Under the pieces are notes generated by a model. That model saw only the letters and a list, made by a program, of their open reading frames with translations. It was not told the origin of the DNA and did no database searches. Position numbers and translations under genes: made by a program. Below, in pieces: positions 94 to 6,802 of a stretch of 6,802 bases of DNA (position 1 is its first letter; each line of letters begins with the position of its first letter). Source of the DNA: Phycisphaeraceae bacterium (GTDB lineage: Bacteria; Planctomycetota; Phycisphaerae; Phycisphaerales; Phycisphaeraceae); assembly GCA_016763955.1 (NCBI GenBank), contig JAESSU010000263.1, forward strand, positions 1 to 6,802. Direction: 5' to 3'.

Positions 94-1512
94 GGGCAAT
101 TCCTCCATAGGTGAATTTAAAATGCGGTGATGACGATTAATACAGGCTTTAAGAATGCCCACACGACGAGCTGAGACACGACCATCAGTCATGATGTGTC
201 GCAAGACAGCGATGTAAAATGATTCGGGATAACGGTTGCCAGTAAGGATCGCGGACATCAAGCTCCCCGCAAGCAGCGGCGGAATATCTTTGGCATCTCG
301 AGCCGTTTCCCAGAGCAGCTCACGCACCATCGGTGGAGGTGACGGCGGCATGCCTGGCTTAGGCGGACGATCCATGCCGATGATGTTCAAGTCTTGCAAG
401 TGTTGTTGCACACGCTGGAGTAGTTGGCCGAGGTTGCCGGTAAACCAATAGCGGATGCTGATGCGTGCAGCATTGGGGGAAAGTCCTAACACATAAAATT
501 GAGTTTGAGGATCGCCGAGTTCATCCGGCGGCGCGCTGCCGTTAGCAATGCGATGCAGCGGTGCATGGATGTTCTTTTTTTGTTCTTCATCTTCAATATA
601 GCCAAACATCTTGCCCCATAAATTTTCAGCAGGTGATGGTTTTTCTGTCCAGAACACTGTGGTGGCATCACCGATAATCACACGTCGTTGTTTTTGAGCA
701 AGCAGGTGGTTTAGTGCTGTGCAATATCGGAATGTAGCTTGCTCGGAGACTGGGGCATTGTAGGACTGGGTATTGCCATAGGATTCATAGGCTTTGTCAT
801 TAAATGAGACCAGTGAACCACCAACACTTTGCCCGCCGACAATGCCTTTAATCTTGGGTTCATGTAAACGGGCCAGCGTCAATTGTTCACCGGTGATTAG
901 ACATTGGCCCACCTGCTGCGGCTCTTTTTCATCTTCAACCGGCGCGTTAAGTGTGGACCGCCAGTAATCTTGAATCTTGGGCCGATCATGCACATAGCCA
1001 GCTTGACCGCGAATTTGAAAGACGCCATTGTGATTGGGGGCTTCAAGTAAATCCTCACGTCCATCGGCTTGGCTGATATCCCATTTTTCTAAAAATCGGC
1101 AGACTGATGAATAGCCTGGATCATCAATCTGTTTTTCGCGGGCCAAATGTTCTTCACGAAGTTTTTCAAAGGCTGCCGTTGCGCGATCCTGTTCCTTGTC
1201 TAGTGCTTTGCCAGTCTTCCCTTTGGCTTTTTGAGCAGGCACCATCCCTAGCAGATACGCTGAATTATCCCAGAGAAAACAAGGGTTCAATCCGGAGCCC
1301 GAAGGTTTGGTTTGTCCGGGCATGGTCATGGCAACAGGACGCGGCTTTCCTTTTTTATCATGATCAATAATTTGAATTGCATGGAGTTTGCCATCGGTTT
1401 CTATTACCACACGAAAACCTATTTGCTGCACACTAAAACCAAAGGACGCAATCGCCACCGTTGGATCATCGCGTAATCGTTGATAGTAATCATGTAATGC
1501 TTGGAGGATCAT
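1..1512 (-). CDS. cas8c: Cas8c/Csd1, large subunit of type I-C Cascade (3' end outside window)
   Basis: Cas8c is the large subunit of the I-C Cascade surveillance complex; it recognises the PAM and helps open the target duplex. The frame is open for 504 codons from an ATG at 1512 and runs off the left edge. The N-terminus ([13 protein letters not shown], then [11 protein letters not shown]) and the segments [63 protein letters not shown] and [17 protein letters not shown] are typical of the Csd1 family. Usual family length is near 570-620 residues, so about 80-110 are missing. The ATG overlaps the cas5c stop (ATGA), and AGGTGG lies 4 nt upstream, pointing to translational coupling in one operon. 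No frameshift was seen in this gene. The identification is firm; the host group is not. Confidence 0.95.
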
Positions 1513-2210
1513 GCAACCACCTGCCTTTGCACATCACGGAGATTGATGATGCCATCTTTCATCACTGCACGGAAAAATTGAGGCTGTGGGTTTAAGCGTT
1601 TGCCAGTGTGCCCATCGATGACCGCGCCTTTTTTGTCCGGCTGGTAATCCATGTCATAGAGCATGAACCCAAAATCTTTGTCTCGCTCATTTTCAGGCAA
1701 TTCACATTCAGGTAAAGGCTCGTCCCCTTCAATCAACTTGAAATGGGCAGGAAATTCTCGACATCCCAGATAAGGATGATGGAAGTATTGTCCCTGACGC
1801 GCTCTTCGTGAAAACATCGCAAAATGTTTTTGTTCTTTTTCACTGGCATCAAGCATTTCAAAATGTGCCTCAATGACGTACCCCACATCACGGAGCAATA
1901 AAGACGCTCGTTGCTGGCGTTCCTCTTCGACGATCATGCCGAGATTACCTTTGCCTTTTTTCATAGCTGTCTTAGCATTGCTGTATGATGCTTTGGAACC
2001 CACCTCATTACGGCGGATATTCATCCAGCGAACCGGCTTAAGCACATGAATCGCATCGATCACCCAACGAATTTGTGGCTTCCAGTAAATAGCCTCCAGC
2101 ACACCTCGGGCGGCCGATGGCGTCATCACGTCGTAACTGACTCTCTCCGCTTTCATCTCGGGTCTGGTGAACAAAGCGTGCTCTCCCCAGACGTGTAATC
2201 GAATGCCCAT
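1509..2210 (-). CDS. cas5c: Cas5c/Cas5d, pre-crRNA endoribonuclease of type I-C
   Basis: In I-C systems, which lack Cas6, Cas5c cuts pre-crRNA at the base of the repeat hairpin, leaves an 11-nt 5' handle and stays bound to it in Cascade. The 233-residue protein has the family signatures in order: [20 protein letters not shown] at the N-terminus, [17 protein letters not shown] (residues 29-45, including Tyr42 as a candidate active-site residue), [18 protein letters not shown] (100-117), and the [16 protein letters not shown] block (142-157). Its length is normal and it appears intact. The ATG is preceded by AAAGGGG at 8 nt. The gene follows the small ORF after 28 nt and overlaps cas8c by 4 nt, so it lies mid-operon. 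The crRNA-like element at 2612-2707 is a plausible substrate. Confidence 0.95.
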
Positions 2211-2238: not shown

Positions 2239-2469
2239 TCAGTTCATGTTGTGTGATTTGTCGCGAAAGCGACGTGAACACAAGCCGCGTTTGCGGGCAC
2301 CAACCAACGCAAGCCAAGTGTGATTGGGGTCAAATTCTTTACCCATTTGAATGCAGAACTCCCTATGAGCTTGATCAAAAATTTCCGTGTATGGAGTGCT
2401 GTCAAGACCAACCCGCAATTTTGAAACAATTTGTGCAGCGATCGTAAGTTCTCGTTGTGTCAGTTTCAT
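2239..2469 (-). CDS. Small basic-tailed protein, first ORF of the cas5-cas8 operon, function unknown
   Basis: This 76-residue ORF has a good ribosome binding site (AAGGA, 7 nt before ATG) and lies 28 nt before cas5c on the same strand, so it is probably translated and is the first gene behind the promoter at about 2512. I do not recognise a family. It starts [18 protein letters not shown], a likely amphipathic helix, has a central segment [19 protein letters not shown], and ends in an Arg/Lys-rich tail (RRFRDK). There is no signal peptide or membrane segment. It is not a standard I-C cas gene. Because its promoter is the apparent target of the crRNA-like RNA, it could be a regulator, a toxin kept silent by Cascade, an anti-CRISPR-like modulator or an unrelated passenger. 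Nothing in the sequence decides between these. Confidence 0.6.
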
Positions 2470-2511: not shown

Positions 2512-2517
2512 AGTATA
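2512..2517 (-). promoter_or_regulatory. Candidate -10 box of the small ORF-cas5c-cas8c promoter
   Basis: TATACT matches the sigma-70 -10 consensus at 5 of 6 positions. It would put the transcript start near 2505, leaving a leader of about 36 nt before the ATG at 2469. The -35 region (GTTAGT at 2540-2535 with a 17-bp spacer) is poor, so the promoter may need an activator or use another sigma factor. A second, weaker pair, TTGCAT (2571-2566) and TAAACT (2549-2544), lies upstream. The -10 box sits inside the crRNA-like target. Confidence 0.5.
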
Positions 2518-2529
2518 TGATATTGTGAA
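2512..2529 (-). promoter_or_regulatory. PAM plus seed target of the crRNA-like RNA, over the cas promoter
   Basis: Read on the minus strand, TTC (2529-2527) is followed by ACAATATCATATACT (2526-2512). The guide-like segment at 2647-2661 reads ACAATTTCATATACT. Fourteen of 15 positions agree, with the one difference at position 6. TTC is the canonical I-C PAM and lies on the correct side. Cascade flips out every sixth guide base, so position 6 does not count. Pairing ends after position 15 (guide C, target A at 16). Binding here would cover the -10 box and should block transcription without licensing Cas3 cleavage. Confidence 0.82.
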
Positions 2530-2533
2530 AGAA

Positions 2534-2546
2534 AACTAACACGAGT
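2534..2546. repeat. Left arm of a 13-bp inverted repeat shared with the guide
   Basis: AACTAACACGAGT here is the exact reverse complement of ACTCGTGTTAGTT at 2659-2671, which lies in the distal part of the guide-like segment. On the minus strand this copy sits 4 nt upstream of the TTC PAM of the seed target. So the two parts of the guide correspond to two neighbouring promoter blocks in swapped order, and one linear guide could not pair with both at once. Confidence 0.85.
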
Positions 2547-2611
2547 TTACTACACTTTTCGGTGTATGCAAGAGTTTTTACAAAAAAACGATATTTTTCT
2601 TGCGTCAGCAG

Positions 2612-2646
2612 GTCGTTCAATGTCAAATTGGTACGCGGATTGAAAC
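2612..2646 (+). repeat. Solitary degenerate type I-C CRISPR repeat
   Basis: The 35-nt segment starts GTCG and ends GGATTGAAAC, like standard 32-nt I-C repeats (GTCGC... to ...GTGGATTGAAAC). The stem has drifted but still folds: 2614-2616 pairs with 2633-2635 and 2617-2621 with 2627-2631 (one U-G pair), with U2632 bulged and a 5-nt loop (2622-2626). Exactly 11 nt follow the stem, the length of the I-C 5' handle. No second good repeat follows, so this is not an array. Confidence 0.8.
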
Positions 2647-2658
2647 ACAATTTCATAT

Positions 2659-2671
2659 ACTCGTGTTAGTT
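2659..2671. repeat. Right arm of the 13-bp inverted repeat, inside the guide
   Basis: ACTCGTGTTAGTT is the exact inverted copy of 2534-2546, 112 bp away centre to edge. It occupies guide positions 13-25. It has neither a PAM nor a seed match when the guide is aligned to the promoter copy, so it is probably a trace of how the guide arose from promoter sequence, or a shared protein site. Confidence 0.8.
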
Positions 2672-2677
2672 ACTTGG

Positions 2678-2707
2678 CGCCCGCTTCACTGCGGGCGTCT
2701 TTTTTTT
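2678..2707 (+). terminator. Rho-independent terminator of the crRNA-like RNA, resembling a repeat hairpin
   Basis: CGCCCGC (2678-2684) pairs perfectly with GCGGGCG (2691-2697) around the 6-nt loop TTCACT, followed by TCT and seven further T residues to 2707. The stem and loop look like a I-C repeat hairpin, so this is probably a second repeat whose 3' handle has been replaced by a T-run. It would both end transcription and serve as the 3' hairpin of the mature RNA. It works on the plus strand only; on the minus strand no T-run follows. It overlaps the cas3 stop. Confidence 0.85.
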
Positions 2708-3908
2708 ATATCACCGACGACTCACCCATCACTTGTAATTCCCCAAGGCATAATCCCAATGTTTCGTCATAGCGGCTACTGTTGGACAAAACAGCTAATT
2801 GATCATTGTCTTTTAACATCTCAATATCCCCAGATTGCACCAAAGCATCCCAATGCCAGACCGGAATCTGAACGGTGTAACGTTGTATCTTGCGGTACAA
2901 ATCACGATTGGGTTTTTGATGCTGTAACTGTGAAATTAAATCATCCCCAACCTTGCCGTAAGACACCACGACCGACTTTTGCGTTTGCGGGATAAAGGTA
3001 AATCGCTGGGCAGCCGTTTTGTAATCAAAGAGCACTTTATTAATGTCACAAAAACATTTCATCACGTTGTGCTTATCCCATTGATCTGACTTCTTCCAAT
3101 AGTGCAACTCAAAATATTGCTTGATCGCAGTGAGATTCAACAGATCATCGGGATGATCGGGTATCACCTCTTGCGTACATTGGGCAGCCTGGCGCATGGA
3201 TCCTTTAGGAATATCATTAATGCCGTTCTCAGGTTCAAATACAAAAACCTCCCCCATGGCTTGCTTGCCTTCACGATTGCATCGGCCTGCTGCCTGAGCG
3301 ATGGAATCCAATCCCGCTAAGCTGCGATAGACCACGGGGAAATCAATATCAACGCCCGCTTCGATTAATTGTGTACTCACCACACGACACCCCCCGGAAG
3401 CTCGCCCGTCCTCGGAAGTTTTAAGACGTTCTTTGATTTTGTCCAAACAAACGGAGCGATGGGCGGGACACATGGCGGCGCTAAGGTGATACACATCGCC
3501 GACGTGTCGTAGAGATTGATAAAGATCAGCTGCTCGCTTGCGGGTGTCCACAATGGCTAATACTTGCTGATGTTTAGCCAAACGATCTGTCAGCGTATTG
3601 AGCGTGATCTTGCCAATGGTTTTGACGGTCACTCTTTTCATTCGCTCAAACAATTGCTGCGGCTTATCAATGATCTCACATGCGTTTTGCAGGCCGATGG
3701 CAAACCCTTCGCGTTGGATCACCGCAGGCTGCGTGGCAGTGCAAAGAACAATCGTGCAGCCGTAGTTGCGAACCAGTTCATCCAACGCAGCAAGGCAAGG
3801 TTCAAGCAAATCCACGGGGATGGCCTGAGCTTCATCAAGCACTATCACACTGTTGGCAATGCGATGCAGTTTTCGACATCGTGATGTACGATTGGCAAAA
3901 AGTGATTC

Positions 3909-3913
3909 AAAAA
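3909..3913 (-). other. Second frameshift site in cas3
   Basis: The minus strand reads CAATTTTTGAATC. As it stands the frame gives NVQFLNHFLPIV and stops at 3845. With one extra T it reads NVQFFESLFANRTSRCRKLH and continues straight into VIVLDEAQAIP, which is the expected Cas3 sequence between motif Ib and the DEAD-type box. The correction is therefore well defined: one base lost from a T6 run. Confidence 0.88.
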
Positions 3914-4749
3914 TTGAACATTGGTGGTCACCACAACCGGTGCATCCCAGTTCTCCGCAGCAAGCCTCATCTGCTTATTCTCTTTATCTGGTGATAGATT
4001 GCTGTGATGTTCCAACACAACATCATCTTCAAGCACCTTGCGAATAATGTCAGCGTTCTGCTCAATAATACTGGTAAACGGCAGGGCAAAGATCACACGA
4101 CGCAAATTATTGCGATGCGCATGTTGTGTGGCAAACGCCAAACTCGAAAATGTCTTGCCCCCACCGGTCGGCACGGTCAAACTAAAAAAACCAGGCTTAT
4201 TTCTCGCAGCTATAACACACTGCTGATAAACCGCGTCACGACATCGTCCGACTTGAGTCTTCAGATTGCGCTTGCCAGCAACACAATCATCAACTCGTTT
4301 GGCCCATAATTGCCAGTTGGGTGCAGTGATATTTCTCGCGTTAAATTGGCAGGCATTATAGTGCAATTCAGTGGCTAGAAAGTCGGCATCCACCAGAGCA
4401 GAGAACATCATCCGCCCCCAAAATGCAACTTGAAATGCAGCTTCGTTTGGTGTCAGTTTTAATTGCAAAGAAGGCATGGGGATGGTCGGAATTTGTTTTA
4501 ACTCTGAGGGGATGTCCACCGGTTCGATACGTTTGTGCAGACGATGTATCAATGTGCCCGGGACATCACGATTCGCCTCTATTCCAGCATCGGCTAAGCC
4601 CCCATGATGACCGGCAATGCAGTAAGCAGCGATGCGTCCCAAAGGCTTTAACGGCCCGTCTAGCATTTTTATCGCATGTTGCGCACCTGCCGAACTGTGA
4701 TCGATTTTTCCCACAATGTCTGCATCTGAATCGTCTTTAGCAGCACCGC

Positions 4750-4755
4750 TTTTTT
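4750..4755 (-). other. First frameshift site in cas3 (A6 run, coding strand)
   Basis: The coding strand reads CTC AAA AAA GCG. The HD segment ends in WQNYLKK in this frame; the next frame continues SGAAKDDSDADIVGKIDHSS, giving the conserved DHS motif. One extra A, or a -1 slip on the A-run, joins them. Natural slippage is possible here, since a lysine tRNA can re-pair on AAA after a one-base slip, but a lost base is the simpler reading. Confidence 0.85.
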
Positions 4756-5069
4756 GAGATAGTTCTGCCAGGCATCGGAGAGTTTCCCAAGATCATGCCA
4801 TATCGTCAGGTGATATAAAAAGAGTTCAGCGTTGAAAGGAGTCGCAAAAGTTACCGCAAGCGATGCAACGCGATTGAGATGTAATTCAAATGATTCCCAG
4901 TTTTCCTGAGGATTTGGGCCGTGAGCAAATACGTTCATTCCGCAAGTGGGAATTAATAGATTGCCCGCAATTAGATTTTTTTGATGAGTATTAGACACAA
5001 ATTCCCCCCTGATGTGAATCCACCTAACAGTAATGATATTTTTACGATAAAGCAACATGCCACGACACT

Positions 5070-5113: not shown

Positions 5114-6802
5114 ACCACGATTCCTGCTGAAGCACTTAAGCGGCAATACGAAGCGACCCTTCACGATCACTTGTCACAGATTAGAGATGCGTACAATCCC
5201 TCCCGAAACTTCGGCGCAATTCTAGGGCATGGGGACGAGGGGAAAGTTCAACTGCAAACGGGTAAAAAAATCCATGCTGCACTTAAACGTGACCCGATCA
5301 ATTACACCAATGCCAATGGCGAAACGGTCAGCATCAACCCGATCAATCACTACAACGATTTTATTGCGCATGCTGTTGATATTCTCAGAGCAGGCAAAGC
5401 CTTTGATGACGGGTTCACAACCGCCAAACCAACGAACCTCAACCCGCAGCTCGAATCAGCCGTCGAAAATATTCGGCAATACTTTAATGCCATGCTCGAT
5501 CGCGCCGACGAAGTGGGCTTGCTCCCCGGCAAGCGGACACTCGAAAAAGTCGGCAAAGAGTTTGAAGAAATTCAAACCGAATTGGATGGGTTGATTAAAG
5601 AGGCCGACGGCTTGCGAGCTGCAGGAATCACGCCAGACGATGATATTGCAAATTTTGCTAAATCCGTTTTGGACAATCCGCAGTCTGGGGCGCATAAGTT
5701 TCGAATATTCGACCTTGACGCTACTGATGTAAAAATGATCGAAGACGCTACGGGCCTAAAACTTGAGGGTTACACTTATACGGTTGATAGCGACGATATA
5801 AGACATGCTTTCAAAAAACATGGAGACGCAAAAACCGAGGCTCGCCATGGACAACAAGCGTTAAGCATTAACGATCTTTCTTTGCTTCGTGCAATACTTA
5901 AAAACCCAGACGAAATTAAATTGTCGAAGGAATTGTCAGGACCAAATAAGCTCCCCGCAATAGAATTTATCAAAGAGGCCAACGGGAAGCTGTTTGTAAT
6001 TAAAGAAGTGCGTGCGGGCAAGAAATTGCTTGCGTTTAAAACTGCATATAAAAAAAGTTCCCGACCGGCTAATGCTCAAGGCCCTAGCCATAACATCCAA
6101 AATGGGGCAGGAACGAACTCAAGTATCGGCTCGGCCACTCCCCAAGTCAGGACCATTTACACTTCCATTCCCGAAGAATGGCACAATAAAACGCTGTTCG
6201 ACTGGGGAAGCACAGGTTTGATGAACGAAGGCAAAGTTAAGATTGGTCGTCGCAACACTTTTAGCCCGCTGTGGTTGGATCAAGTCAAACGTATCAAGCG
6301 CGGTGAGAATCCCGCAGTGATCCGCGAACTGCGAAAAATGACTGATGAAATTTGGGAAGTCCGAAAAAAAACCGGCAAATACTGGAACACAGACCACTAC
6401 CTAGCATCGCCCGACGCAATCGCCCAAGCGCAAGCACGGGTCAACACCCGCAAGCTAAACCGGCTCGACAAACAACTCAATGCTGCTGAATCTCGACTCG
6501 AAGCCAAACGCGGTCGGCTAATTGAAGTGCAGCAGTTCAATGCCAATAGCAAGAACTATTTCACTCGTCGCTTTTTAGCAGAGCAAGTCAAGAACCGACC
6601 TGTTGAATTTGCCTCATGGCTCAAGCGTTCTTGGCAACGCGATCGCAACTTAATCACGGACATTGAAACCGGTAAGCGGGTCCGAATCGAACCCAGCGAA
6701 CGCCAGATCATCGATCATCTACGCGAACAACTCGACATCCCCGAAAGCGTCCGCACCGAAGGCGACTTGGCAGACAGCCCCGAACTCTACGAACGCTACC
6801 AA
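5114..6802 (+). pseudogene. 5'-truncated phage/mobile-element protein with a PBECR-like nuclease domain (3' end outside window)
   Basis: The frame is open for 563 codons after a TAG at 5111 and runs off the right edge. It has no credible start: the first in-frame ATG is at about codon 129, and the TTG at 5171 has no ribosome binding site. The real N-terminus is therefore missing, or the gene is broken. Residues about 178-314 look like the PBECR fold (phage Barnase-EndoU-ColicinE5/D-RelE-like nucleases): DIRHAFKKHGD (228-238), then RHGQQALSINDLSLL, KNPDEIKLS, a run ending in KLFVIKEVRAGKKLLAFKT and TAYKKSS. Such domains occur in phage head-type and large polyvalent proteins. The part before it is helical and acidic; after it come a low-complexity linker (about 315-345), a unit rich in Trp and Lys, and a charged coiled coil (about 447-475). 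The overall protein family is uncertain. Confidence 0.65.

Follow-up and report, generated by a model that had tools for sequence, protein, structure and literature searches.

The window analyzed here, 6,802 nt in length, is an entire contig of a 3.58-Mb assembly (559 contigs, 78.5% complete). Its minus strand carries cas3 in three ORFs, a 76-aa ORF, cas5c and cas8c; the interval that separates cas3 from the 76-aa ORF holds, on the plus strand, a predicted RNA gene composed of one repeat, a guide and a terminator-like hairpin (Table 1). Two frame breaks interrupt cas3, at window positions 4744-4753 and 3896-3914, both close to A/T runs, and these may reflect either decay of the nuclease gene with Cascade retained as a regulator, or assembly errors. 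The reading frames of cas5, of cas8 as far as the contig end and of the 76-aa ORF are intact, unlike that of cas3. Searches of the 78.5%-complete assembly returned neither cas7 nor, with two repeat patterns, a type I-C array. An ORF of phage type (5171-6802, plus strand), which carries a PBECR3 nuclease-like domain, adjoins the 5′ side of cas3. Elsewhere in the same assembly, contig C349 (locus L001) holds cas1 together with ORFs that resemble, by eye, cas2 and the end of cas9, which look like a second CRISPR type. The closest relative, among the best 80 of 172 cas5 matches, is Planctomycetes bacterium syqfu, whose cas5 is 80% identical; its cas3-cas5 interval contains neither the guide RNA nor the small ORF.

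Table 1. Features of the window, and genes behind the target in the window and 25 further loci
Feature	Position or locus	Strand	Basis
cas8c/csd1, truncated by contig end	1..1512	-	TIGR01863 4.7e-111
cas5c	1509..2210	-	TIGR01876 9.6e-52; PF09704
76-aa ORF, next gene behind target; small-protein family with motif LPYTDEF, termed PYT-EF	2239..2469	-	ORF and profile
Target ACAATATCATATACT, 14/15 identical to guide, mismatch at position 6	2512..2526	-	sequence
PAM TTC	2527..2529	-	sequence
Lone degenerate type I-C repeat GTCGTTCAATGTCAAATTGGTACGCGGATTGAAAC	2612-2646	+	sole match of repeat pattern in assembly
Predicted 11-nt 5′ handle of processed RNA, CGGATTGAAAC	2636..2646	+	sequence
Guide; bases 1-15 pair with target	2647..2680	+	sequence match
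Terminator-like hairpin, 9 pairs (8 G-C), plus T run	2676..2707	+	folding; hairpin 2676-2699, then T8
cas3, split: 4669-5058, 3845-4714, 2706-3848; two frame breaks	2706..5058	-	ORFs and family matches
PIN gene with FitA-like ribbon-helix-helix ORF across target	L044, L051, L057, L064, L083, L090, L126, L129		
Other PIN-gene loci	L049, L073		
DUF3990 gene and second ORF, then cas5	L087, L098, L156		
Small hydrophobic ORF behind target	L079, L121		
PYT-EF ORF behind target	window, L016, L045		
Unassigned small ORF behind target, away from cas3-cas5 junction	L048		
cas5 or cas3 as first recognized gene behind target	L033, L060, L066, L125, L130, L174, L182		

An earlier note on this DNA had described a lone degenerate I-C repeat followed by a guide and a terminator hairpin, and all three elements are indeed present at 2612-2707 on the plus strand. 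The single CRISPR repeat (2612-2646) sits outside any array, within the cas locus, and its 3′ end, ACGCGGATTGAAAC, is close to that of the array repeat of syqfu (L020), from which the stem letters differ. Handles are 11 nt long, and the handle predicted here was delimited on that basis. The hairpin and the T run behind it would terminate the RNA. The predicted stem of the repeat is no more stable than those of shuffled sequences (z -0.12), and in the best predicted fold of the whole RNA, guide bases are paired with the repeat. An ordinary CRISPR array was considered and rejected: there is a single repeat only, and the match of the guide halts after base 15, short of full spacer length.

The match itself lies on the minus strand at 2529-2512, where, as the same note had it, TTC is followed by a stretch identical to the guide at 14 of 15 bases, with the sole mismatch at position 6 and no continuation after position 15. 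TTC is the type I-C PAM (PMC8406640). When the region 2211-2611 was simulated as 20,000 first-order Markov versions, with sixth bases ignored, TTC-flanked runs of read bases reached at least 9 in six versions, at least 10 in two and at least 11 in none, compared with 13 observed. Moreover, TTCACAATNTCATA—TTC plus the first 11 bases, the sixth left free—occurs once in the 3.58-Mb assembly, at the target site. The target is placed 43-57 bases upstream of the small ORF's start codon and contains TATACT (2517-2512, minus strand), a possible -10 element of a predicted promoter. At the window target, no sequence stood out as a sigma-70-like promoter (shuffled sequences score equally in 72%), and a promoter search called none on the minus strand. 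Guide bases 13-25 (2659-2671, plus strand) have an exact second copy at 2546-2534 (minus strand), in the same sense as the target and 20 bases upstream of it, with no adjoining TTC; the two guide-matching pieces stand in swapped order in the leader relative to the guide.

Comparable loci were gathered via cas5 as 207 type I-C locus records, which form part of the existing loci and include some places in duplicate: the best 80 of 172 matches in named genomes, 17 from the order of the window (window included), 90 from three further groups and 20 extra stretches. A first scan covered 97 loci and 364 handle-like sites, that is, repeat 3′ ends outside arrays. The 24 bases following each site were taken as the guide and compared at every position of the locus, with sixth bases ignored and the PAM excluded from the ranking. 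Runs of at least 12 read bases were found at 15 of the 364 sites, and 13 of these, the window among them, are flanked by TTC; the other two were judged artefacts, one caused by an array edge and one by a direct repeat at another place in the locus. Among the 349 sites scoring 4-11, TTC occurs at 14, which is background. A second set (110 records, 78 sites) yielded 12 sites with at least 10 read bases, 11 of them with TTC, comprising four re-fetches and seven new pairs. Under a lenient scan, 25 of 164 sites reached 13 of 15 read bases and 23 had TTC, adding six new pairs; the two top sites that lacked TTC were artefacts. The total is 26 repeat-target pairs, the window and 25 others with different letters, each with a TTC-flanked target. 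Most of the 207 locus records contain no such guide-target pair.

The signal depends on the register of these matches. In a phase control on 104 sites, ignoring multiples of six gave 14 sites with at least 12 read bases (13 with TTC), whereas ignoring another phase, or none, gave only one or two (0-1 with TTC). Likewise, shifting the start of the guide by 1-12 bases either way abolished TTC-flanked matches of at least 10 bases, save for one at +5, as against 13 at shift 0. These controls, along with the blind PAM counts of the first and lenient scans, are free of pair-selection bias. The pairs themselves entered the set because they match (L125 and L130 owing to their TTC as well), so the following counts lean that way, and related loci among the 26 are not independent: mismatches fall at position 6 in 22 of 26 pairs and at position 12 in 19 (41 of 52 cells), compared with six of the 260 cells that make up positions 1-5 and 7-11. 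Own pairs match at a mean of 11.7 of the 12 read positions within 1-14, whereas 650 swapped pairs match at a mean of 3.8, the maximum of 11 arising between related loci. Where related loci differ, the target follows the guide at read positions in 195 of 200 differences among eight VapC-type loci, in 21 of 25 among the three PYT-EF loci and in four of four in the DUF3990 group; at positions 6 and 12 it follows in none of 41 among the VapC-type loci, none of four among the PYT-EF loci and none of 45 over all groups.

The covariation across other I-C loci that the earlier note had proposed as a check is therefore borne out by 25 further pairs, and positions 6 and 12, unread on its premise that Cascade skips every sixth guide base, drift freely across the 26. 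Covariation at read positions, the adjoining TTC and drift at 6 and 12, taken together, leave little room for any explanation other than Cascade reading the pair. A close relative of the window itself bearing the RNA was not found among the collected loci. Of the 26 loci, 23 have A as the target base at position 6 on the PAM strand, though this base mismatches the guide in 22; A makes up 38% of target bases (20 pairs).

The 26 pairs share an anatomy. Under a loose rule, 22 of the 26 have a hairpin followed by T, which begins 24-41 guide bases downstream of the repeat (16 for L045); from its position, the RNA would comprise one repeat, about 30 guide bases and a terminator. Of the 26 RNAs, 23 are antisense to the cas genes. 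The distance from repeat end to target spans 55-595 bases, and the match is 14-21 bases long in those 18 pairs whose run of read bases reaches at least 12.

What lies behind the target varies considerably. A PIN-domain gene is found there in 10 of the 26 loci and a DUF3990 gene in three. PIN genes beside FitA-like ORFs are in general toxins, and the PIN and DUF3990 cargo genes here are likely toxins; Pfam itself gives no function for DUF3990. In L087 (from the cultured Roseburia porci), L098 and L156, the DUF3990 gene and an ORF of about 150 aa lie between the target and cas5, co-directional with cas5; this second ORF matches no Pfam family in L087 and L098. Small ORFs of 62-70 aa in L079 (5652-5843, minus strand), L121 (1182-1370, minus strand) and L065 (5699-5911, minus strand; its guarded target is weaker) have alike L-L-P starts and a strongly hydrophobic stretch, and are candidate small membrane proteins.

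The window's own target is followed first by a gene for a protein of a new small-protein family, which we name PYT-EF. The 76-aa protein matched no known family, and a single-sequence search of 5.8 billion proteins returned only itself. A profile search retrieved 13 other PYT-EF proteins, one apparently the L045 protein itself, which share LPYTDEF and a basic tail, and weak matches turned up in 21 other genomes when 301 genomes of the order were searched in six frames. A weaker PYT-EF-like ORF lies between cas3 and cas5 in L032 (about 5785-5980, plus strand), where no guide RNA was detected. Three helices are predicted for the 76-aa protein (mean pLDDT 78). This protein may act as a regulator or as a toxin.

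Because of both the sequence and the covariation, guide, PAM and target belong together. We consider it very probable that the window encodes a type I-C, CreR-like single-repeat RNA, predicted to repress the small ORF-cas5-cas8 operon of its own locus by steering Cascade onto that operon's leader. How this would proceed, from RNA processing through Cascade binding and repression to release, we infer by analogy with CreR and CreA precedents, as they are described in passages of PMC13131331, PMC12737573 and PMC9458426. Cas5c would cut the repeat, leaving the handle on the RNA; Cascade loaded with this RNA would bind TTC and about 15 bp ahead of the 76-aa ORF, blocking transcription of that ORF together with cas5 and cas8. 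In a Xanthomonas I-C system, 27 bp were required for self-target killing (PMC8406640), so an R-loop of about 15 bp would be too short for Cas3 attack and the predicted outcome is a block with no cutting. A shortage of Cascade, its occupation by crRNAs or an anti-CRISPR block would release the operon.

Because many of the sister RNAs precede a PIN or DUF3990 gene, the RNA of the window may guard, besides cas5-cas8, the small ORF too. More broadly, we lean towards viewing the I-C cas3-cas5 junction as a guarded slot, at which a single-repeat RNA aims Cascade, through about 15 bp read in a six-base rhythm, at cargo swapped between lineages. That cargo would be PIN toxins with their antitoxins, DUF3990 proteins, small membrane proteins, PYT-EF proteins or the cas operon itself.

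A related reading shifts the emphasis from autoregulation to addiction: the RNA would act mainly as the antitoxin of a CrePA/CreTA-like module, with Cascade silencing a PYT-EF toxin and cas5-cas8 riding along. Such a module accords with the 13 of 26 loci whose target is followed by a PIN-domain or a DUF3990 gene, with the PYT-EF ORFs that occupy the same slot in the guarded loci L016 and L045, where the guide letters differ, and with the high diversity of CreT toxins (PMC9458426). We nonetheless judge it rather unlikely, since the PYT-EF-like stretch between cas3 and cas5 in L032 has no detected RNA, only one of 22 weak PYT-EF matches in the order's other genomes (L016) adjoins a cas5 match, and the model of a small three-helix protein has weak matches only, several of them DNA-binding domains.

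Readings that set this use of Cascade aside fare considerably worse. A decayed array could leave an orphan repeat with the scar of a self-targeting spacer, as the degenerate repeat and the out-of-frame cas3 might suggest; a spacer derived from the locus should, however, match over its full length, whereas the 18 longer pairs stop after 14-21 bases, guide and target change in step between loci and a terminator-like hairpin lies downstream in 22 of 26, which renders a remnant very unlikely. Still a shade less credible is a transcription-factor operator or a duplicated piece of promoter in which Cascade plays no part: the second 13-base copy of guide bases 13-25 upstream of the target would suit it, but it fails to predict the adjoining TTC, the start of the guide at the repeat end or the mismatches in phase with six. 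Finally, the solitary repeat and the phage-type PBECR3 ORF beyond cas3 recall Racrs, phage-borne solitary-repeat RNAs that inhibit Cascade. Racrs are encoded in viral genomes (PMC10651486), whereas the window RNA lies between cas genes beside a PAM-flanked target, and we regard this origin as extremely improbable.

RNA-guided self-repression by Cascade is already known. Shmakov et al. 2023 reportedly cataloged standalone CRISPR repeat-like elements with partial matches to promoters of cas or cargo genes, mostly in type I systems; our RNA shares with these the standalone repeat and the partial match, and parts of the present set may be listed there already. CreR RNAs have been named for I-B, I-E and V-A (PMC13131331), or for "Type I and Type V-A" (PMC12737573), and the window resembles them in its ectopic repeat within the cas locus and in a partial, PAM-flanked match before cas genes with no long match. 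It differs in being I-C, in having one repeat and a terminator-like hairpin, and in a cargo that varies among loci. No I-C bearer of a CreR-like RNA is named in the review passages or among the literature matches listed. CreTA modules, with one or two ectopic repeats and a partial promoter match (PMC9458426), are likewise similar in RNA design and logic, as are CrePA modules, and the PIN and DUF3990 genes behind the targets extend that likeness. CreTA and CrePA have been described for subtypes I-B (PMC9458426) and I-F, and CreP typically has a KilA-N domain (PMC12737573), whereas the first gene in the window encodes an uncharacterized 76-aa protein, followed by cas genes. In the Francisella Cas9 system, scaRNA also lets an effector serve as a repressor, by way of a degenerate repeat and a match of 15 bp (PMC9458426), features that the window shares; scaRNA, however, works with Cas9, on a different target gene and with a different RNA architecture.

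If our reading is correct, RNA-guided self-control of CRISPR systems extends to subtype I-C, by means of a simple RNA of one repeat and a terminator. The 26 natural pairs record, on an evolutionary scale, which bases of the guide are checked by I-C Cascade, with positions 6 and 12 free and the others not, and the genes behind the targets are candidates for new toxins or regulators. Should the junction prove to be a guarded slot, an anti-CRISPR block of Cascade would free the cargo and fresh Cascade together. The variety of that cargo suggests a general route by which Cascade is made indispensable, such that anti-CRISPR attack would trip an alarm.
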